Assembly: GCA_937995785.1 (NCBI GenBank) | Contig: CALKJQ010000065.1 | Location: 1 to 34,786, forward strand | Source: Candidatus Kapaibacterium sp. | Lineage (GTDB): Bacteria; Bacteroidota; Ignavibacteria; Kapaibacteriales; UBA2268 | Direction: 5' to 3' | Length of the DNA: 34,786 nucleotides | Shown: positions 25,922 through 34,781 of the stretch, one piece after another | Layout: every line of letters starts with the position of its first letter | How positions within the stretch are numbered: the first letter of the stretch is position 1 | The notes under the pieces: generated by a model | What the model saw: only the letters and a program-made list of their open reading frames with translations | Databases searched by the model: none | What the model was told of the DNA's origin: nothing | Position numbers and translations under genes: made by a program

Positions 25922-27048
25922 AATGCGACGTATTAATAGTTGGAGCGGGGTTGGCTGGCTCGATTCTTGCCGAACGAATTGCTAATGAATTGAACCGAAA
26001 GGTGATTATTATCGACAAAAGATTCCACATCGGTGGCAATTGTTACGATTATCGCCAGGAGGATGGGGTATTAATTCATAAATACGGACCTCACATTTTC
26101 CACACAACTAATCAAAAGCAATTTGAATATATTTCACGATTTACGGAATGGAATAAATATTTCCACAATGTGCTTGGTTCGGTAGATGGCAAATTAGTAC
26201 CAATTCCTTTCAATTTCAATTCTTTGTATGCTCTTTTTCCATTTAAATTTGCTAAGCGATTAGAAGAAAAATTGATTTCCAAATATGGTTTTGGTATTAA
26301 AATTCCAATTCTAAAGATGAAAGAAGAACAAGACGAAGATATTCAATTCCTTGCAGATTATGTTTATCGTAATGTTTTTTTGAACTACACCACCAAGCAA
26401 TGGGGATTAACACCCGAAGAATTAGACCCAACCGTAACGTCGAGAATACCTGTGTTCCTTTCGAGAGACGACCGATATTTTCAGGATACATACCAGGGCA
26501 TTCCAAAGGAAGGATACACAAAAATCTTCGAACGAATGCTTAACCATCCAAATATTAAAGTTATGCTGAATACCGATTTTGCCGAAGTGAAGGACGATAT
26601 TATATATAAATACCTAATCTATACGGGTGCTATCGACGAATTTTTTGATTACAGATATGGCGAATTACCCTATCGTAGTCTTCGGTTCGATTTGCAAAAG
26701 TTCGATATGCCAAAGTACCAATCCGTTGCCCAAGTAAATTACCCAAACAATCAAGCATACACACGAATTACCGAATTCAAGCACTTTTTGCCAAACAATT
26801 CATCCACCACTACGGTTGCTTTTGAATATCCTGAACAATTTCAATTAGGTCGTAACGAGCGTTTCTATCCTATTCCACGAACCGAAAATCGTTCAGTTTA
26901 CGAAAAATACTTAGAACTTGCAAACGAAATTTCGTCCAACACCTTGTTTGTTGGCAGATTGGCTGAATACCGATACTATAATATGAACGAAGTTGTTGGT
27001 GTTGCCTTGATGATGTTCGAAACAAAAGTAAAAAATCTTAAATTTTGA
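25918..27048 (+). CDS. glf: UDP-galactopyranose mutase
   Basis: A flavoenzyme that converts UDP-galactopyranose to UDP-galactofuranose. The FAD-binding Rossmann motif GAGLAGS is at residues 9-15, followed by the family signatures GGNCYDY near 40, HKYGPHIFHTTN near 56, PIPFNFNSLYALFP near 98, FLNYTTKQWG near 155 and the conserved Arg region SRIPVFLSRDDRYF. The C-terminal FVGRLAEYRYYNMNEVVG is also typical. Length 376 is normal. Start overlaps the flippase stop and its end overlaps the next gene (TGATG), so the three are translationally coupled. Confidence 0.97.
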   Translation: MKCDVLIVGAGLAGSILAERIANELNRKVIIIDKRFHIGGNCYDYRQEDGVLIHKYGPHIFHTTNQKQFEYISRFTEWNKYFHNVLGSVDGKLVPIPFNFNSLYALFPFKFAKRLEEKLISKYGFGIKIPILKMKEEQDEDIQFLADYVYRNVFLNYTTKQWGLTPEELDPTVTSRIPVFLSRDDRYFQDTYQGIPKEGYTKIFERMLNHPNIKVMLNTDFAEVKDDIIYKYLIYTGAIDEFFDYRYGELPYRSLRFDLQKFDMPKYQSVAQVNYPNNQAYTRITEFKHFLPNNSSTTTVAFEYPEQFQLGRNERFYPIPRTENRSVYEKYLELANEISSNTLFVGRLAEYRYYNMNEVVGVALMMFETKVKNLKF

Positions 27049-27545
27049 TGGAAAACCACAAAATTCATCATCCGTTGAGGAAAAAATTTCCTCCATCAGA
27101 GTCCTGTAGCTGCAACATTTGCAAAGGATTTTGCATCCGACCTGGTTGGTGGATAGTATCCGAAGCTCAATTAGCCATACAAAACGGGTTTGCCCACCGA
27201 ATGATGCTCGAAATATCACCTGATAGTGCTTTTGGGGTTCTTTCTCCAGCGTTTAAAGGTAACGAGGGATTGATAGCGATGCAAGTTTTCTCGAAAAATT
27301 ACTGTACTTTTTATTCCGAGGGATTGTGTGAACTTTTCGGTCGTGAATACCAGCCTCTGGAATGCCGTTTTGTCCATCATCGGCGAAAAGGTCAAGGCAT
27401 GGTTTGCCATGCCGCAATCGAAAAAGATTGGAACACGATGGCGGGCAAAAAACTCGTTAAAACTTGGATAGAAATTACGGGTTTTGTCGGAAAAATTTCC
27501 AAACTATATCCAAATGAAATCATACAAAAAATTAAATTTCTGTAG
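27048..27545 (+). CDS. Cysteine-rich putative metal-binding protein
   Basis: 165 residues with cysteine clusters suited to zinc or iron-sulfur binding: CSCNICKGFC near 20-29, followed by IRPGWW, then CTFYSEGLCELF near 87-98, ECRFVHHRR near 104 and VCHAA near 118. The pattern is loosely like the YkgJ/UPF0153 cysteine-cluster proteins, but I cannot assign it firmly. I chose ATG 27048, which overlaps the glf stop as TGATG; an upstream TTG is less likely. Coupling to glf suggests cotranscription, and no functional link is shown. It converges on prfB. Confidence 0.7.
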   Translation: MENHKIHHPLRKKFPPSESCSCNICKGFCIRPGWWIVSEAQLAIQNGFAHRMMLEISPDSAFGVLSPAFKGNEGLIAMQVFSKNYCTFYSEGLCELFGREYQPLECRFVHHRRKGQGMVCHAAIEKDWNTMAGKKLVKTWIEITGFVGKISKLYPNEIIQKIKFL

Positions 27546-27570: not shown

Positions 27571-28669
27571 TTATTTGTCGCCAAGCAAAAGATATGCTTT
27601 TAGGAAATCGTCCAAATCGCCATCCATAACTCCCAAAACGTCTGTTTTCTTCAATTCGGTTCTGTGGTCGTTCACCATCGTGTAGGGTTGGAAAACATAT
27701 GATCGGATTTGACTTCCCCACTCGATTTTCATTTTTTTGCCTTCGATTTCGGCTCGCTTGGCTTCTTCCTCTTCTCGCTTAATTTGATACAAACGCGATT
27801 TGAGCATTTTCATTGCTCTTTCGCGATTTTGAAGTTGCGAACGCTCTTGCTGGCACGAAACCACAACTCCCGAGGGGATATGCCGCAGGCGGACTGCTGT
27901 TTCGACCTTATTAACATTTTGCCCACCTTTGCCGCCACTGCGGAATGTGTCCATTTCGATATCATCGGGATTGATTTCGATTTCCACATCGTCCTCGATT
28001 TCGGGATAAACATAAACAGAAGCAAAAGATGTGTGGCGACGGGCATTAGAATCGAATGGCGATATCCGAACCAATCGGTGAACTCCGTTTTCGCCTTTCA
28101 ACAACCCAAAGGCGTATTTACCTTGAATTTCCAATGTTGCCGATTTAATTCCAGCACCATCACCCTCCAATTCATCAACTAAATATGCTTTGAATCCACT
28201 ACGCTCGCACCAACGCGTATACATTCGCAACAGCATCTCAGCCCAATCTTGTGCTTCGGTTCCTCCCGCACCCGAATGTATAGTTAAAATTGCGTTTCGT
28301 TCGTCGTCCACTCCCGAAAGCAAGTTTTTAATTTCCACTTCTTCTACTGCTTTTTGCAGTTGTTCCAATTCGTTATCAATTTCGCCCGTGAACGATTCGT
28401 CCTCTGCCGCTTCTGCCAATTCAATTAGTGCCACTATATCTTCGTAGTTTTTGTATAGGTTTTCGTAAGTAGCAATCCAATCCTTTAATGAAGAAATTTC
28501 TTGTAGAATTTTTTTTGCTGTATTTTGGTCGTTCCAAAAATCAGTTTCTTGGGTTAGTTGGTCTTTTTGGCGAACTAATTCGCACTTTGTATCGACGTCA
28601 AAGAAACCTCCGTATTTGCTGGATTCTTTCGTCGAGCGATTTTAATATCTCTTTTTGTGGTTCGAACAT
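27571..28669 (-). CDS. prfB: Peptide chain release factor 2, with programmed +1 frameshift
   Basis: RF2 ends translation at UGA and UAA. The gene starts at ATG 28669; codon 23 is CTT (28603-28601) followed by in-frame TGA (28600-28598). Skipping one T gives GAC and a frame that runs to 27571, 365 residues in all, the usual RF2 length. Downstream signatures are the domain 1 region, [11 protein letters not shown], the stop-codon tripeptide SPF ([15 protein letters not shown]), and the peptidyl-release motif GGQ ([19 protein letters not shown]). The segment CGGAGG a few bases before CTT TGA C is the internal Shine-Dalgarno element of the known autoregulatory signal: low RF2 favours frameshifting. 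Confidence 0.96.
28598..28614 (-). promoter_or_regulatory. RF2 autoregulatory +1 frameshift site
   Basis: On the minus strand GGAGG (positions 28611-28607 within ATACGGAGG) stands three bases before CTT TGA C. This is the canonical RF2 recoding element: a Shine-Dalgarno-like stimulator, a slippery CTT and a poorly terminated TGA followed by C. The 0 frame upstream and the +1 frame downstream both encode RF2 sequence, which proves that the shift is used. Confidence 0.95.
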
Positions 28670-28863: not shown

Positions 28864-29706
28864 ATGTGGATAGAAATATTTAAGACGGGCACTCACACAA
28901 GCAGCAACGGAAATGACCACGATTTTTCGGTGGAAGATTTGGATAAAATTGCCAATCAATACAATCAACTAAATTCTAACAATAATAATCTTGCTCCACT
29001 TGTGAAGGGTCATCCTTCGACCGACGCACCTGCATACGGTTGGGTGGAGCGACTTGCCCGCCGAGGCAACTATCTTATGGCTAAAATTCGTGATTTAACA
29101 CCCGAAATAATCGAAGAAGTCCGCAACAAAAAATATCAAAGAATATCGATATCTCTCACTCCAAAACTTCACCTAAATCACGTTGGTTTGCTGGGGGCAG
29201 CCGTGCCGGCTGTCGATGGTTTAGCCCCCGTCTCTTTTGTGGAATTGGACGACAACATAGAACTGGAATATTCACAAAATGATGGAAGTTTCACTTATTT
29301 GATTCATCAAAATAACGAATTAAAAGAAAAAGTGGAGAATTACGAACGGGCATTAGTTAGCAAGGATTTAATGGAATTTACTTCGAACTTAGTGGAAAAG
29401 AAAATAATATCAAAACATCAAAAGCACAATGCTCAAGATTTGTTGGAATTGGCTTACGATATCGACAAAGCTAATCCAAACGAATTCAATTTGCTTGAAA
29501 AAGTAAAATCGTTTTTCCAGAAAATGCAATTCAATTCATTGCAAAAAGAATTTGCAACAAACCAAACTACCAACAAAATTGGCGAATTACTAAACACCCG
29601 AGAATTACTAAACGACAGGGGCGAATTGCATCGAACCATTTTGGAATATATCGAGCAAAATCCCGAAATAAGTTACGAACAAGCATTATCTGAAATTATA
29701 AAATAA
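28864..29706 (+). CDS. Mu gpI-like phage protease/scaffold protein
   Basis: 280 residues. The N-terminal half matches the Mu I-protein family: IEIFKTGTHT, a middle segment with VKGHPSTDAPAYGWVE, LMAKIRDLTPEIIEE, YQRISISLTPKLHLN, LGAAVPAVDGLAPVSF. These proteins mature phage heads, and a scaffold is often made from the same gene. The C-terminal half is helical and charged (NELKEKVENYERAL, then FNLLEKVKSFFQKMQF), as expected for a scaffold. It is the first gene of the phage-derived cluster, 14 bases before the capsid gene. Catalytic residues cannot be assigned with certainty by eye. Confidence 0.75.
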   Translation: MWIEIFKTGTHTSSNGNDHDFSVEDLDKIANQYNQLNSNNNNLAPLVKGHPSTDAPAYGWVERLARRGNYLMAKIRDLTPEIIEEVRNKKYQRISISLTPKLHLNHVGLLGAAVPAVDGLAPVSFVELDDNIELEYSQNDGSFTYLIHQNNELKEKVENYERALVSKDLMEFTSNLVEKKIISKHQKHNAQDLLELAYDIDKANPNEFNLLEKVKSFFQKMQFNSLQKEFATNQTTNKIGELLNTRELLNDRGELHRTILEYIEQNPEISYEQALSEIIK

Positions 29707-29719
29707 ATTAGGAGAAATA

Positions 29720-30640
29720 ATGAACAGCAGATTGGATAATTTGAGAATTGTTGACCCAATTTTAACTAATATCGCCGCCGGATATACACCAGCAAATTTG
29801 GTTGGACGATACCTATTCCCAACGGTGAAGGTAAAATCTCAAAAAGGCAGAGTGCCCGTGTTTGGCAAGGATTCCTTTGTATTGAGGGATAGCAACCGTG
29901 CAATTCGAAGCAATTCGAACCGAATACCCACTATGGATTTCGAAACGATTGAATTTTCGTTGCAAGAGCGCGACTTAGAAGTTGCAATGGATTATTTAGA
30001 AGAGTTGGAAACATATGATTTGTTGCAATACGAGCAAAAATTAGTAACTGATTTACTTAACATTTTGGAACTCGAGAAAGAAAAGACAATAGCCGATTAT
30101 GTTCAGAACCCCGATAATTTTGGTTCCAACAACAAACTTGTGTTGGATGAAAGCAATAATTTTACTGCTGGGGGTAGCCCAAAAACAATAATAATGGAGT
30201 CGATTGAGCAATTAAGAAAGCAAATATCGCGGATGCCCAATTTGATGATAATTGGAACTGATTCATTCAACAAAATTTTAAGCAATTCCGAAATTAATTA
30301 TCCCCTGAATAATATTGGCAAAATGACTGCCGATACTAAATATATTGGGGAGGCATTTGGAATTAAAAATGTATATGTGGGACAAAGTGTTTATTCCGAC
30401 GATGGCAGAGTTTTCAAGGATGTATGGCGAGATAATATAATAATAGCCTATGTTGATCAATCTCAAAACAAATCACAATACAATCCAAGTTATGGCTATA
30501 TTTTCCAGCGTGATGGGATGCCCGAAATCGATTCTTACTACGAAAATGGAGGTAAAGTAAAAATAATTCGGGCAACCGACAATTGGGCAATGAAAATTGT
30601 TGCCCCCGAAGCCGCTTTTTTAATAAGTAATACAAATTAA
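29720..30640 (+). CDS. Phage major capsid protein
   Basis: 306 residues. The N-terminal segment VDPILTNIAAGYTPANLVGR and YLFPTVKVKSQKGRVPVFGK are typical of a capsid subfamily found in Mu-like and other tailed phages. The body (LLNILELEKEKTIADYV, LRKQISRMPNLMIIGTDSF, FGIKNVYVGQSVYSDDG, VDQSQNKSQYNPSYGYIFQR) and the end ATDNWAMKIVAPEAAFLI fit an HK97-type fold in which the axial and peripheral domains follow the N-arm. A strong ribosome site (AGGAGA) lies 5 bases before the start. Its place after the protease and before the decoration protein supports the call. Confidence 0.85.
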   Translation: MNSRLDNLRIVDPILTNIAAGYTPANLVGRYLFPTVKVKSQKGRVPVFGKDSFVLRDSNRAIRSNSNRIPTMDFETIEFSLQERDLEVAMDYLEELETYDLLQYEQKLVTDLLNILELEKEKTIADYVQNPDNFGSNNKLVLDESNNFTAGGSPKTIIMESIEQLRKQISRMPNLMIIGTDSFNKILSNSEINYPLNNIGKMTADTKYIGEAFGIKNVYVGQSVYSDDGRVFKDVWRDNIIIAYVDQSQNKSQYNPSYGYIFQRDGMPEIDSYYENGGKVKIIRATDNWAMKIVAPEAAFLISNTN

Positions 30641-30651
30641 GGGAGAAATTT

Positions 30652-30990
30652 ATGATATCCAGATTATCTTATCAGCCTTTGTTAAGGCTAACTATTACTG
30701 CAGCCGAGGCAATCCCCGCCCATAAATTTGTGAGTATTAACGGAGGATTATGCACTGGATCTCAAAAAGCATTGGGAGCAAGCGATTATCCCGTTTTGAG
30801 TGGCGAGCAAACATCGGTAATTGCTTTGGGCACTGCAATATTGCAGGCAACGGGCTCAATATCCAAAGGAACTTTGGTTGCCGCTGATGCTACGGGCAAT
30901 GCCAAACCAATCGAAAGCGGAGAGTCGCCGCTGGGCATAGCAATTAGCGATAAAGTTGGCGATTTTGTGGAAGTTCTGATAACGCATTAG
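30652..30990 (+). CDS. Capsid decoration protein, DUF2190-like
   Basis: 112 residues of beta-rich, Ala/Gly/Ser-rich sequence (ITAAEAIPAHKFVSINGG, VIALGTAILQATGSISKG, LVAADATGNAKPIESGES, PLGIAISDKVGDFVEVLI) as in DUF2190/cement proteins that stabilise phage heads. It lies 11 bases after the capsid gene with GGGAG ahead of the start, the usual place for such a protein. Confidence 0.75.
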   Translation: MISRLSYQPLLRLTITAAEAIPAHKFVSINGGLCTGSQKALGASDYPVLSGEQTSVIALGTAILQATGSISKGTLVAADATGNAKPIESGESPLGIAISDKVGDFVEVLITH

Positions 30991-31070
30991 TTCTTTGAAA
31001 AGGATTATTAATTGGTGTGTTCCAGGGGAAAAAAACAATAGAGCTCATTCATATAACATTGTGAACTCAC

Positions 31071-31113
31071 CCCCTTACCCCCTCTCTTAAGAAGAGAGGG
31101 GAGAGAGAAGGGG
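31071..31113. repeat. Nested palindromic repeat (REP-like)
   Basis: A perfect 10-bp inverted repeat CCCCTCTCTT (31079-31088), loop AAG, AAGAGAGGGG (31092-31101) sits within an outer CCCCTT (31071-31076) / AAGGGG (31108-31113) pair. It occupies the spacer between the decoration protein and the small membrane protein gene. The strand bias of C then G tracts is like dispersed palindromic repeats of many bacteria. It may also act as a transcript-stabilising hairpin or as an attenuator. No T-run follows on the plus strand. Confidence 0.7.
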
Positions 31114-31174
31114 AAAACTATCGCCCACACTTTGTGGAGAATATAAAAAAATCAAATAAAAAATGGAGTTAATT

Positions 31175-31456
31175 ATGTTCGAGAAAATTAAAGATTTTAT
31201 TTTAAGAAATGGTTTGTGGTTGCTAATCTCGGCGATTGTTTTATTAGTTTTGGCACCGCAAGTGAGCGAATTGAGGATGTTGATGTTGATTGTATTCATC
31301 GAATTAGTTGCATTGGCGATGTCGGGTATTGCAAGTTATGTTTTCACCAAAGTAGATTTTATCGAAAATCGTTCCTATAACGCACTTGGGGCTATATTTC
31401 TGGGAGTTCATTTCTTGGTGGGACTTGGTGTGGTAGGATTGTATTATACGATATAA
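31175..31456 (+). CDS. Small membrane protein, holin-like by position
   Basis: 93 residues with three hydrophobic segments (NGLWLLISAIVLLVLAPQ; LMLIVFIELVALAMSGIAS; LGAIFLGVHFLVGLGVVGLY). I chose ATG 31175 because GGAG stands seven bases before it; an ATG four codons upstream lies on top of that element. Holins have this size and topology and the next gene is a peptidoglycan hydrolase, but the sequence belongs to no family I recognise. Confidence 0.6.
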   Translation: MFEKIKDFILRNGLWLLISAIVLLVLAPQVSELRMLMLIVFIELVALAMSGIASYVFTKVDFIENRSYNALGAIFLGVHFLVGLGVVGLYYTI

Positions 31457-31477
31457 TTTTTTTTAGACGAGGTTGTT

Positions 31478-32047
31478 ATGTTGAAAAAAATAATCATTAT
31501 TTTTCTTATTCCACTTGGATTGATGTCGCAATCCAAATTCGAACTACCTTGCAACTCCGCTTTACTCGAAAAATCCTTGCAAGTTGGATTAAAGCAAATT
31601 GGAACTATCGAAAAATCGAACCGAAACGATGGTGAAGTGGAAAAATACTTACTTGCAGTGGGCTTAACCAAAAGCAACCCCTATTGTGCCGCCGGTCAAT
31701 ACTATTGCTTTTTGCAAGCAGCTAATCAGTTAAAATTGACTGAAAACTTAATTCCAATACCCAGAACTGGACTGGCTAATGCAATATATGATTTCGCTAC
31801 ATTTAAGGGTCGTAAGATGCCTTACCGCGGAACCACGCACGATTTGATTGTATGGCGGCGTGGGAATTCAATATTCGGTCATATCGAACGAATTATCGAA
31901 GTTATGGATAAAGGCAACGTGCTCACTCTTGCTTTTAATGTTGCCGACGAAAAGGGCCGGCAAGGCGTATTTGTGAAAAAGCGGAACATTTATAATCCTA
32001 TCCGACGACTTAAAATTCGTGGCTTAATTGGTTTTCGAGGTGTTTGA
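31478..32047 (+). CDS. Secreted peptidoglycan hydrolase, CHAP/NlpC-like (putative endolysin)
   Basis: 189 residues. A Sec-type signal peptide covers about the first 18 (KKIIIIFLIPLGLMSQSK). The catalytic Cys is seen in NPYCAAGQYYCF near residue 67 and the His in GHIERIIEV near 130, the Cys/His dyad of CHAP and NlpC/P60-type amidases/endopeptidases. The rest (LQVGLKQIGTIEKSNRNDG, VWRRG before the His) fits this group. In the phage cluster it could serve host lysis, with export by Sec instead of a holin. A host cell-wall enzyme cannot be excluded. GAGG precedes the start. Confidence 0.75.
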   Translation: MLKKIIIIFLIPLGLMSQSKFELPCNSALLEKSLQVGLKQIGTIEKSNRNDGEVEKYLLAVGLTKSNPYCAAGQYYCFLQAANQLKLTENLIPIPRTGLANAIYDFATFKGRKMPYRGTTHDLIVWRRGNSIFGHIERIIEVMDKGNVLTLAFNVADEKGRQGVFVKKRNIYNPIRRLKIRGLIGFRGV

Positions 32048-32472
32048 TGAAGTCATTTTTGGTTATTATTAGCGTTTTAGCTTTTGCATTATTACTTTTA
32101 TTTTTATTAATAAATAATTTACCACTCAAAAAGCAAGACTATGTTGTTCATAAAATCGACACAATCATTAAAATAATTCCCCAAAAAGAAATAAAAATCG
32201 TCGAAGCCAAACCAAAAATCAAATTCATACTCGATACAATTATCCAAACCAAGCCATTCGTTGCCACAATCGATACAGTGATAGTTCGCGACACACTCTA
32301 CGCCCAATTTATGTTTCCCGATAATTTAATGTCGATAAATGTTCGAAGAAGTTCCGACAGCGTATTATTGCCCCAAATTACTATCGAAAAAACAAAATAC
32401 GAACGAAATTGGTACGAAACTGCCGCCGCTTTTGGTGGTGGTTTAATTTTAGGCTTAATAATAGGAAAATAA
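32047..32472 (+). CDS. Bitopic membrane protein of unknown function (spanin-like by position)
   Basis: 141 residues with a hydrophobic N-terminal helix (SFLVIISVLAFALLLLFLL), a beta-rich, Lys/Ile-rich middle of about 80 residues, and a hydrophobic Gly-rich C-terminal end (AAAFGGGLILGLIIGK). The start ATG 32047 overlaps the preceding TGA. Proteins with this plan follow endolysin genes in many phages and can act as spanins or tail-sheath accessory factors, but I recognise no family here. It is 3 bases ahead of the portal gene. Confidence 0.6.
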   Translation: MKSFLVIISVLAFALLLLFLLINNLPLKKQDYVVHKIDTIIKIIPQKEIKIVEAKPKIKFILDTIIQTKPFVATIDTVIVRDTLYAQFMFPDNLMSINVRRSSDSVLLPQITIEKTKYERNWYETAAAFGGGLILGLIIGK

Positions 32473-32475
32473 ATT

Positions 32476-33504
32476 ATGATTGGAATTAACAACACAAACT
32501 ATTTAACCAACGAGTTGATTACTCGAAATAATTTTTATTCTATCCATCGCACTATTGGAATATTGCCAAATATCGCGAAATTGTCGGTAACAAATTTGGA
32601 TTACATTCGCTCGCTCGACGAAGTTAGAAGCGACCCACACGTCCACAGCTGCATTCAATCCCGTAAGTCGGGTACTATGGCAATGAATTGGGAAATTATT
32701 GAATGTAGCAACAAAGATATGAACTCAATTATCAAATGTAATTTAGAAAAAATCGATGTTCTGGGTGTAATTTCGAACATTTTAGATGCGATATTTTATG
32801 GTTTCCAAGTACTGGAAATAATTTGGACGGAGGACAACAAAGGAAGTTTAATCGTGGACTCAATCAAGCCCAAACCTATGGGCTGGTTCTTTTTCGATAA
32901 TGAAAACAATTTAAGATTTAGGAGTAGGAGCAGTGCTAACGGAGAATTGTTGCCCGAGAACAAATTTTTAGTTCCACGCCACAACCCCAAATACGAAAAT
33001 CCCTATGGCGATGCTCTGCTGGGCAAATGCTATTGGGCAACAACATTGAAAAATATGGGCTTCAGATTTTGGATTAATTTCTTGGAAAAATACGGGATGC
33101 CTTTAATTATAGGTCAATACACTTTCCCATCGAATCCCGAAGAATTGGCAACTTTGAGCCAGAGATTGAATGAATTGCTCAATTCGCAAACTATCGCAAC
33201 GCCATCGGATGTGAATATCGATATTAAAGACATAGGACAATCGAAATCTGTAGATTTGTATTTGCAACTGATAAAAATTGCAAATGCCGAAATTTCTAAG
33301 GCATTGCTATCCGAAACATTAACAACCGAAATGGATTCGGGTTCGTATGCTGCCTCAGTAACCCATTTTAAGGTTCGACGCGAAGTAATTTTAGGCGATA
33401 AATTCTTAGTTGAACAAACGATGAACAAATTGATTGAATATATAGCGAAAGTAAATAATTTTGAATTTTGGAATTTGCCCAAATTTGCCCTTATGGAACA
33501 ATGA
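32476..33504 (+). CDS. Phage portal protein, DUF935 / Mu gp29-like
   Basis: 342 residues. The DUF935 marks are DPHVHSCIQSRKSGTMAMNW near residue 53, LDAIFYGFQVLEIIW near 103, HNPKYENPYGDALLGKCYW near 175, FWINFLEKYGMPLIIG and the C-terminal LLSETLTTEMDSGSYAAS with SVTHFKVR and VLGDKFLVEQTMN. Portals form the dodecameric DNA channel of the head. It is shorter than Mu gp29 (about 500 residues); the conserved core is present and the missing part is the variable C-terminal extension. Its TGA overlaps the umuC ATG. Confidence 0.85.
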   Translation: MIGINNTNYLTNELITRNNFYSIHRTIGILPNIAKLSVTNLDYIRSLDEVRSDPHVHSCIQSRKSGTMAMNWEIIECSNKDMNSIIKCNLEKIDVLGVISNILDAIFYGFQVLEIIWTEDNKGSLIVDSIKPKPMGWFFFDNENNLRFRSRSSANGELLPENKFLVPRHNPKYENPYGDALLGKCYWATTLKNMGFRFWINFLEKYGMPLIIGQYTFPSNPEELATLSQRLNELLNSQTIATPSDVNIDIKDIGQSKSVDLYLQLIKIANAEISKALLSETLTTEMDSGSYAASVTHFKVRREVILGDKFLVEQTMNKLIEYIAKVNNFEFWNLPKFALMEQ

Positions 33505-34781
33505 AGAAACCAAACATAATCGCGTTGGTTGATTGCAACAACTTTTATGCTTCGTGCGAGCGTGTGTTCAATCCCAAATTAAATGGTCGCCCCATCGTAG
33601 TTCTATCGAACAATGATGGGGTGATTATCGCTCGTAGCGAAGAAGCCAAAGCACTGGGGATTAAGATGGGTGACCCTTTTTTCAAGGTGGAACAGCTAAT
33701 CAAGCAAAAAAAAGTTGCAGTTTTTTCGTCCAACTATACCCTGTATGGAGATTTGTCGGCACGGGTGATGACAACACTCGAACGCTTTTCGCCCGAAGTA
33801 GAGATTTATTCAATCGACGAGGCATTTCTGAATTTAACGGGAATTGAATCCGAAAATCAAACACGGTATTTACACAACATTCGCAATACCATCAAAAAGT
33901 GGCTTGGATTGCCAGTTTCGATAGGAATGGCACCAACCAAAACTTTAGCAAAATTGGCAAACCGATTAGCCAAGAAAAATAAGGAGTACAATGGTGTTTT
34001 GAATTTGTATGAATATGATAATTATGAAAAATTTTTAGAATCAATCGAGGTTGAGGACATCTGGGGAGTCGGGCGGCAATACTCGGCTATGCTACATCGA
34101 AACAATATCCATACTGCATTGGATTTAGCCCGCTCCGACCGCAAATGGATAAAAAAACGAATGACCGTAGTTGGATTGCGAACTGTTATGGAACTCAACG
34201 GAATACCTTGCATCGATTTGGAACACACCCCACCCACAAAAAAATCCATAGTATCCTCGCGTTCTTTTGGCGACTATCTCACAAAATTCGACGAACTGAA
34301 GGAGGCAGTGTCCTATTTTGTTGCCCGTGCATCCGAAAAAATGCGTTCGCAGGGTTCGGCTTGCAGAATTTTGAATGTGTTTATCCGAACGAATCCATTC
34401 AAGAACTCCCCGCAATACTATAATTCAGCAGAGGTTCGATTGCCATATCCAATGAATGGGACAAACGAACTATTGCCATTTGCCAATCAAGCTTTAAAGA
34501 AAATATTCCGAGATGGGTATTACTATCAAAAAGTTGGAGTTTTGTTGATGGATTTTGTTCAAACCAATAATATGATGGTATCGCTATTCGACCCACCAAA
34601 CCGATTGAACCAAATAAAAGCAACTGAATTGATGGACAAAATCAACAAAAAATACGGACGCGAAGCCATTTACTTTGCCGCAGCTGGAATGAAAGAACAC
34701 CGACGATGGCAAATGAAACGGGAATTACTATCGAACCATTTTACAACTAATTGGAAGCACCTTCCCGAGGTAAAAGCATAG
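33501..34781 (+). CDS. umuC: UmuC-type Y-family DNA polymerase
   Basis: Catalytic subunit of DNA polymerase V-type translesion enzymes. Catalytic residues are visible: the first Asp in LVDCNNFYASCERVF, and the SIDEAFLNL motif near residue 105. The finger region VVLSNNDGVIIARSEEAK is typical, as are the helix-hairpin-helix (VEDIWGVGRQ) and the little-finger domain; the C-terminal DUF4113-like region (YGREAIYFAAAG ... RRWQMKRELLS) is complete. About 426 residues is usual. I chose ATG 33501; it overlaps the portal stop as ATGA, so it is translationally coupled to a phage gene. No umuD is seen in the window. Confidence 0.95.
   Translation: MKKPNIIALVDCNNFYASCERVFNPKLNGRPIVVLSNNDGVIIARSEEAKALGIKMGDPFFKVEQLIKQKKVAVFSSNYTLYGDLSARVMTTLERFSPEVEIYSIDEAFLNLTGIESENQTRYLHNIRNTIKKWLGLPVSIGMAPTKTLAKLANRLAKKNKEYNGVLNLYEYDNYEKFLESIEVEDIWGVGRQYSAMLHRNNIHTALDLARSDRKWIKKRMTVVGLRTVMELNGIPCIDLEHTPPTKKSIVSSRSFGDYLTKFDELKEAVSYFVARASEKMRSQGSACRILNVFIRTNPFKNSPQYYNSAEVRLPYPMNGTNELLPFANQALKKIFRDGYYYQKVGVLLMDFVQTNNMMVSLFDPPNRLNQIKATELMDKINKKYGREAIYFAAAGMKEHRRWQMKRELLSNHFTTNWKHLPEVKA

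Follow-up and report, generated by a model that had tools for sequence, protein, structure and literature searches.

The DNA examined here, hereafter the window, is the entire contig CALKJQ010000065.1 (34,786 nt) of the assembly GCA_937995785.1 from Candidatus Kapaibacterium sp., i.e. contig C65 of a genome (G000) of 2.25 Mb in 153 contigs that is 94% complete. Towards its right end lies a cluster of seven closely spaced genes on the plus strand (28864-33504), in which Mu-type head genes (protease/scaffold, capsid, cement and portal) surround a lysis-type module (holin-like protein, CHAP/NlpC-like endopeptidase and spanin-like protein); prfB lies to its left on the minus strand and umuC follows it. 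The order and coordinates of these genes are as given in a preliminary description of this DNA. The first gene (28864..29706, 280 aa) encodes a head maturation protease/scaffold resembling Mu gpI (phrog_976, E 6e-50), its match to Mu-like_Pro (PF10123, E 3.2e-4) being under the Pfam cut-off. An HK97-type major capsid protein follows (29720..30640, 306 aa; phrog_1005, E 1.5e-70), and a profile of 10 relatives of this capsid matches the solved phage-related protein 3bjq with E 3.5e-59 over positions 7-306 of 307; the Pfam match of its residues 47-127 to DNA_pol3_delta (E 9.1e-6, past the Pfam cut-off) is regarded as spurious. The third gene encodes a cement/decoration protein (30652..30990, 112 aa; PF09956, E 3.5e-8; phrog_673, E 1.1e-20) and the last one a Mu-type portal protein (32476..33504, 342 aa; PF06074, E 8.6e-76), whose structure model (predicted local distance difference test, pLDDT, 74.9) matches the portals of JBD30 (Z 23.0, root mean square deviation, rmsd, 5.8 Å) and Mu (Z 21.8) and the neck entry of RcGTA (Z 16.7).

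Between cement and portal lie the three genes of the putative lysis module. A small membrane protein (31163..31456, 97 aa) is holin-like, judging by its position and hydrophobicity; it has homologues in cassettes family-wide, no Pfam match, and a best PHROG match that is weak (E 0.13). The second protein (31478..32047, 189 aa) carries an N-terminal segment resembling a signal peptide and appears to be a secreted, endolysin-like CHAP/NlpC-like endopeptidase: its match to CHAP (PF05257, E 9.7e-4) reaches 20 bits for a Pfam cut-off of 26, and Cys70 and His135 are invariant in an alignment of 5 rows. Its best structure model (pLDDT 85, the remaining four models being at 41-42) matches the endolysins LysIME-EF1 and Ly7917 (Z 10.8, rmsd 3.0 and 3.4 Å, respectively), and NlpC/P60 peptidases match it as well. 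The third (32044..32472, 142 aa; alignment of 8 homologues) is a membrane protein that has hydrophobic segments at its N and C termini; this topology and its position suggest a spanin-like function.

The occurrence of this cassette was followed in the 123 genomes of the order. The capsid query matched 50 of them, 47 among the 54 genomes of the window's family and 3 among the 69 outside it, and the portal query matched 50 of the 54. Capsid, portal and large terminase (TerL) matches were sorted by hand into a cassette or stand-alone type and a prophage type, from identity, frame length and contig neighbours. By this sorting, 46 of the 47 family capsids are of the cassette type (that of G055 is distant and prophage-like), as are 48 portals, three of them fragments or interrupted (G070, G083, G091). 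The head cassette is present in 49 of the 54 family genomes, essentially in single copy, and was not found in G054, G055, G058, G069 and G090. A capsid search extended to the class (391 genomes) matched 12 genomes outside the family, and the eight loci inspected comprise four mini-head elements (L186, L188, L189, L191), two full-phage-like loci (L190, L192) and two loci too short to classify (L187, L193); searching the genome contigs for capsid peptide patterns recovered two relatives only.

The usual order in the family is protease, capsid, cement, gp36 adaptor, membrane protein, CHAP, c8, variable genes, c11 (in some), spanin-like protein and portal. The variable genes include fibre-like or LamG proteins in some genera, and the lysis-type genes are retained in nearly all cassettes. 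The cassettes of the window's genus (g1) and of its sister g25 are without gp36, c8 and the variable genes; the gp36 profile has no match in 7 of 7 genomes of these two genera and recovers the cassette copy in each of three other genomes (controls that were partly in the query alignment). In genus g23 the cluster is found in two places, protease-capsid-cement and gp36-to-portal, both being present in G079, G080 and G081 and the second in G082. Cassette proteases are 264-390 aa long versus 380-517 aa in prophage homologues, and intact cassette portals are 335-405 aa long versus 461-504 aa for prophage portals of the family, one 392-aa portal on contig G000:C97 being the exception. The difference in portal length corresponds to a C-terminal extension found in full phages, which the window portal does not have. 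The idea that the portal lost its crown since nothing was packaged was rejected: the model aligns over residues 41-370 or 41-372 of the Mu and JBD30 chains (369-405 residues resolved), and it also aligns up to residue 358 of the HK97 portal chain (367 resolved residues). The portals of mini-head elements, which have a linked terminase, are likewise without the extension, and this counts against the same idea.

Several lines of data indicate that the head genes follow their hosts. Identity of the capsid is correlated with that of gyrB (r 0.71, 42 genomes; 0 of 2000 permutations as high), as is identity of the portal (r 0.83, 39 genomes). The tree of capsid and portal combined has 22 of 36 splits in common with the gyrB tree (random mean 0.13, maximum 2), and none of the strong splits conflict. 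Of the 44 genomes for which gyrB was available, 39 entered this comparison, the other five having been dropped as capsid or portal was missing or short. In the portal tree, 46 cassette portals form one group with a Shimodaira-Hasegawa-like approximate likelihood ratio test (SH-aLRT) support of 98, separate from hand-picked sets of 20 full-phage and 19 mini-element portals; among the 48 cassette portals, those of G070 and G083 (<300 aa) were dropped and that of G091 entered as its longer piece, and the 392-aa portal of G000:C97 and frames of at least 560 aa were excluded. A comparison of capsid and portal dN/dS (nonsynonymous to synonymous substitution rates) had been proposed in the preliminary description, and both ratios are low, 0.016-0.096 for the capsid and 0.038-0.086 for the portal (unsaturated pairs); all nine tested genes are below 0.25, some dS being high. 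The nine cassette genes tested are under purifying selection. The host-like base usage that had been noted is also borne out, the codon usage of the cassette being near that of other long frames of the window (relative synonymous codon usage, RSCU, r 0.965 for 1467 cassette codons) versus r 0.873 for a prophage-like contig from that genome (946 codons), both being small samples.

The claim that the cluster contains no integrase, repressor or terminase stands for the cluster itself, none being recognised among its genes; a stand-alone terminase is found elsewhere in the genome, at G000:C22:2594-3982. We had considered that there was no terminase anywhere, as phrog_2 gave strong matches (E<1e-10) in only 13 of the 54 family genomes, and this was dropped when phrog_38 revealed the stand-alone TerL. 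Three weaker phrog_2 loci that were inspected are, as we read them, host-type helicases or ATPases, one of them PhoH-like, and the prophages of the family use terminases other than the phrog_2 type. Matches to phrog_38 occur in 51 of the 54 genomes; a stand-alone TerL is counted in 48 after exclusion of copies beside prophage-type portals and of weak matches, and is fragmentary in G047, G059 and G082. In G059 its N-terminal and C-terminal parts lie on two contigs (G059:C30 and G059:C53), by a split of the gene or an assembly break. Of the 69 genomes outside the family, two have a match, at 35% (E limit 1e-30). When the surroundings of 21 stand-alone TerL loci were inspected, 20 were apart from recognised phage genes and one (G051) abutted the cassette; in G052 and G091 the TerL is on the contig of the cassette, some distance off. 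In G074, whose genome is a single contig of 2.66 Mb, TerL is located at 0.95 Mb and the cassette at 2.64 Mb, i.e. about 0.96 Mb apart if the contig is circular, which makes joint packaging of both implausible.

The stand-alone TerL keeps its motifs and is inherited with its hosts. The motifs PPRHGKS/PPRYGKS and DDP, which we take to be Walker A and Walker B, and the acidic residues that we likewise assign to the nuclease are intact in the six stand-alone rows shown, and 68 alignment columns are invariant in all 21 stand-alone rows. These 21 sequences form one group (SH-aLRT 100), and their dN/dS is 0.03-0.19 (unsaturated pairs). The TerL tree has 12 of 24 splits in common with that of gyrB (random mean 0.2, maximum 3; 27 genomes), with no strong conflict, and 10 of 22 in common with the head tree (25 genomes). 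Both head and TerL occur in 47 of the 54 genomes, head only in 2, TerL only in 1 and neither in 4 (Fisher p 2.3e-4, with hand sorting and genomes that are not independent); the two genomes of genus g10 are without both.

These data make it probable that this family of Ignavibacteria-related Bacteroidota has a domesticated system similar to gene transfer agents (GTAs), dispersed and passed on vertically, of which the cluster is the head-and-lysis locus; the system is known here from its genes, and a GTA-like action appears likely to about the same degree. The preliminary description had raised a domesticated, possibly GTA-like cluster as a candidate, and this view gains from the near family-wide and essentially single-copy presence, the co-phylogeny with gyrB, the low dN/dS, the flanks without recognised phage genes and the co-inherited TerL in trans. 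In the sections of PMC9662315 drawn on here, GTAs are characterised by (i) caudoviricete-derived proteins, (ii) endogenisation over several loci and (iii) mostly vertical inheritance with co-diversification with the hosts. The first and the third are found in the present family, and the second is indicated by the separate TerL locus, by flanks in which no phage genes are recognised and by the split cluster of g23. GTAs are further characterised there by caudovirion-like particles that carry mainly random stretches of host DNA, cannot hold the whole of their own genome and bring DNA into recipient cells; for such a particle, the present family has the head genes.

Several observations weigh against this proposal. 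Some copies look decayed, the portal being interrupted in G091 and G083, the CHAP gene in G085 and the cluster broken in G070 (assembly errors are possible); a head without TerL is seen in G073 and G092, and a TerL without head in G090; and since the genomes are partly metagenome assemblies, such absences are soft. Two strong conflicts separate the TerL tree from the head tree, both around G071. The cassette flanks are not in common within the window's genus. The protein carbon content of the cassette is not clearly below that of phage homologues, a carbon-content bias being reported for RcGTA-like proteins in the part of PMC9662315 used here. Finally, a divergent tail encoded elsewhere in the genome is possible.

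The tail was sought in the family with profiles of the tape measure, the sheath and gpF. gpF (phrog_220) is found in 18 of the 54 genomes, many matches being beside prophage-type portals, the tape measure (phrog_58) in 12 at E<1e-10 and in 18 at E<1e-3, and the sheath (PF04984) in 3. No strong tape-measure match lies within 20 kb of any cassette, and 29 of the 49 genomes with a head cassette are without gpF, tape measure (E<1e-10) and sheath alike, among them the 99% complete G052. Neither an adaptor nor any tail gene was found in the window's genome, and its cassette contains no receptor-binding gene. The lack of conservation of these three markers, together with the missing gp36 in the window's genus, suggests a particle that is tailless or very short-tailed; for a strictly tailless particle our confidence is tentative and falls short of an even chance. 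The most serious alternative, which we hold to be possible but clearly the minority case, is a GTA-like system whose ordinary tail is encoded at further loci that have diverged beyond the reach of these profiles. GTA genomes are often spread over multiple loci, according to the portion of PMC9662315 consulted, and TerL itself was found in trans only once the profile had been changed; however, the tape-measure, sheath and gpF profiles do recover the tailed prophages of the family, yet nothing conserved emerges from them, and g1 and g25 yielded no adaptor match.

The same genes could instead build pure protein particles in place of DNA-carrying ones. The 29 head genomes without tail markers, the 7 of 7 g1 and g25 genomes without gp36, the lysis-type genes kept in nearly all cassettes and the fibre-like or LamG protein of some cassettes would all fit such particles. 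But such particles would need neither a TerL whose ATPase and nuclease motifs are intact nor a near-complete portal core, both of which are under strong purifying selection, and we consider this alternative unlikely.

Capsid-forming satellites of the PICI (phage-inducible chromosomal island) type consist of one mobile island with an integrase and a linked terminase, make their own heads and borrow the tails of helper phages. In favour of such a satellite, IMG/VR and other families of the class hold related mini-head elements in which TerL, a short portal, protease, capsid and cement are linked; defence-type genes lie next to some of these elements. Tailed prophages are also around in the family, as the gpF and tape-measure matches show. 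Like these satellites, the mini-head elements L186, L188, L189, L191 and most of L194-L212 resemble the cassette in their head genes, their short portal and the lack of recognised tail genes. In contrast to theirs, however, the TerL of the family abuts the cassette in only 1 of the 21 loci, the parts are for the most part unlinked, occur essentially once per genome and diverge along with the hosts (integrases were not searched by profile), and no phage genes were recognised in the flanks inspected; the portals and TerLs of the mini-head elements also form separate groups. That the cassette is such a satellite is very improbable. In the mini-head elements themselves (L186, L188, L189, L191 and the IMG/VR loci L194-L212, L216 and L217, from a viral scan of which the best 80 loci were considered), TerL and short portal are divergent from protease-capsid-cement. 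Among the IMG/VR mini-head loci, TerL is present in 21 of 21 and the short portal in 16 of 21, with no gpF, neck or tape measure labelled; genes of GmrSD, DUF2326, Schlafen/AlbA or STAND type are near some of them. All these mini-head elements are candidate capsid-forming satellites or tailless elements.

It is hardly credible that the cassette belongs to an ordinary or decaying prophage truncated by the end of the contig: every cassette gene with a match is phage-type, a few copies have broken genes, and the family does contain related tailed prophages (L073, which has tape measure, gpF and TerL, and partly L071 and L072), but about one copy in nearly all genomes, a gyrB-like tree, dN/dS far below 1 and long contigs without prophage-like neighbours already refute it for the family as a whole, and the prophage that the preliminary description had imagined as continuing to the right does not materialise, as the longer contigs of relatives show, after the portal, no phage genes related to the prophages compared here.

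The GTA-like system proposed here can be set beside those already described. The Mu-like phages (Mu, JBD30, L071-L073 and L259 of IMG/VR) have homologous protease, capsid, cement, gp36 and portal genes, and L072, L073 and L259 have the membrane-CHAP-spanin-like genes in the same order as the cassette. Mu-like transposable phages carry gpF, tail and transposition genes beside the head, whereas no gpF or tape-measure homologue was found near the cassettes (transposases were not searched for), whose portal is at the 3' end without C-terminal extension and whose terminase is mostly unlinked. Among the matches listed, the closest phage records are distant, at 31% for the capsid (Pasteurella phage AFS-2018a) and 38% for TerL (an uncultured Caudoviricetes record). 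GTAs are known from few lineages, according to the part of PMC12946183 at hand. RcGTA, BaGTA and BhGTA/VSH-1, from Alphaproteobacteria and Spirochaetes, likewise have caudoviricete-derived proteins, TerL and lysis genes that are endogenised, often at several loci, and mostly vertically inherited (PMC9662315, in the same sections); the present system differs from them by a Mu-type head ancestor, a lone TerL gene, in most cases apart from the head genes, and no conserved tail recognised. The nearest architecture that we have seen described is FpGTA of Faecalibacterium, with two loci and particles without identifiable tails. As far as the text of PMC12946183 used here goes, it has a small head operon and a second locus about 125 kb off in one strain, and lysis genes, and its first operon occurs in all 12 genomes of the genus that were studied there. 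Unlike in the present system, its TerL is inside the head operon, its second locus holds fibre, baseplate and lysis genes, and its host is Gram-positive. Particles with about 9 kb of DNA were shown experimentally for FpGTA (same portion of PMC12946183), whereas our comparison is one of architecture. No report of such a system, or of a GTA in this lineage, was found in the open-access literature, which was partially covered and without bioRxiv preprints; PMC8597652 contains both 'Kapabacteria' and 'gene transfer agent' but, in the part seen, is on another subject.

The neighbourhood of the cassettes is variable. Flanks differ between genera, being common to several close species pairs and not to more distant species, as expected if the cassettes are inherited vertically while the gene order of these genomes is fluid. 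Among ten flanking proteins that were scanned (six beside cassettes, four near TerL), seven match cellular-type Pfam families (nucleotidyltransferase, histidine kinase, glycosyltransferases, MFS transporter, secretion tails) and three match none. The synteny next to prfB that had been suggested as a check is not conserved, prfB and umuC having no counterpart in the other 40 loci compared. In the window, umuC (33501..34781, plus strand) encodes a Y-family polymerase (PF00817, E 1.2e-42; PF11799; PF13438), and the contig ends 5 bases past it, so that the window could not be followed further to the right. The ATG of umuC overlaps the portal stop codon (ATGA), an overlap that may put it under cassette control; umuC was not found in the seven other g1 and g25 loci compared and is not part of the family-wide cassette. 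A close metagenomic relative (L274, IMGVR_UViG_3300010248_000041) has umuC 3' of the portal at L274:4563-5840, with an 86% match; its window-type cassette, apparently chromosomal, is catalogued as a viral contig in IMG/VR, and its capsid gene reads as two frames. On the left, the host prfB forms the boundary (27571..28669, minus strand), with PCRF and RF-1 domains in 27571-28434 and a start at 28669 read from the sequence across a frameshift site. Near this start, an in-frame TGA at 28598-28600 (minus strand) lies in AGGTTTCTTTGAC, which resembles the frameshift site known from prfB. Between UDP-galactopyranose mutase and prfB, a 166-aa frame (27045-27545) has no Pfam match. PADLOC models gave no result on five proteins, and a sigma-70 promoter scan gave 20 hits versus 20.1 in shuffles, i.e. 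no excess. Contig G000:C97 (L083, L123) is a short prophage-like contig of the window's genome with a different terminase and portal, and its terminase frame continues from an apparent galactokinase end (galactokinase judged by eye).

Should the GTA-like system act as proposed, the cassette and the TerL locus would be switched on together in some cells, heads would assemble on the portal, and the stand-alone TerL would fill them with pieces of chromosomal DNA. The holin/endolysin/spanin-like module would then lyse the cell and free the heads, which recipient cells could take up. Since no gene is next to the large terminase in all of the 21 loci inspected (the small terminase was not searched for), packaging may be unspecific. 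One conceivable history, somewhat less likely than not, is that a tailless transfer system was fixed early in the family, with a portal-bearing capsid, an unlinked stand-alone TerL, release by lysis and fibres or nothing replacing the tail, and that in the window's genus it has shrunk to the seven genes of the cassette and one terminase gene.

For viral surveys these results carry two warnings: a cassette of the L274 type is catalogued as a virus, and a terminase screen with a single profile (phrog_2) overlooked the partner gene. For the family, a head and lysis set that is present family-wide and co-inherited with the hosts together with a lone TerL marks the system as a strong candidate for a novel type of virus-like DNA-transfer particle, possibly tailless. 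With an unlinked TerL and no conserved tail in such a family-wide system, two questions become testable: what minimal set of phage parts a DNA-transfer particle requires, and whether it can do without a tail.

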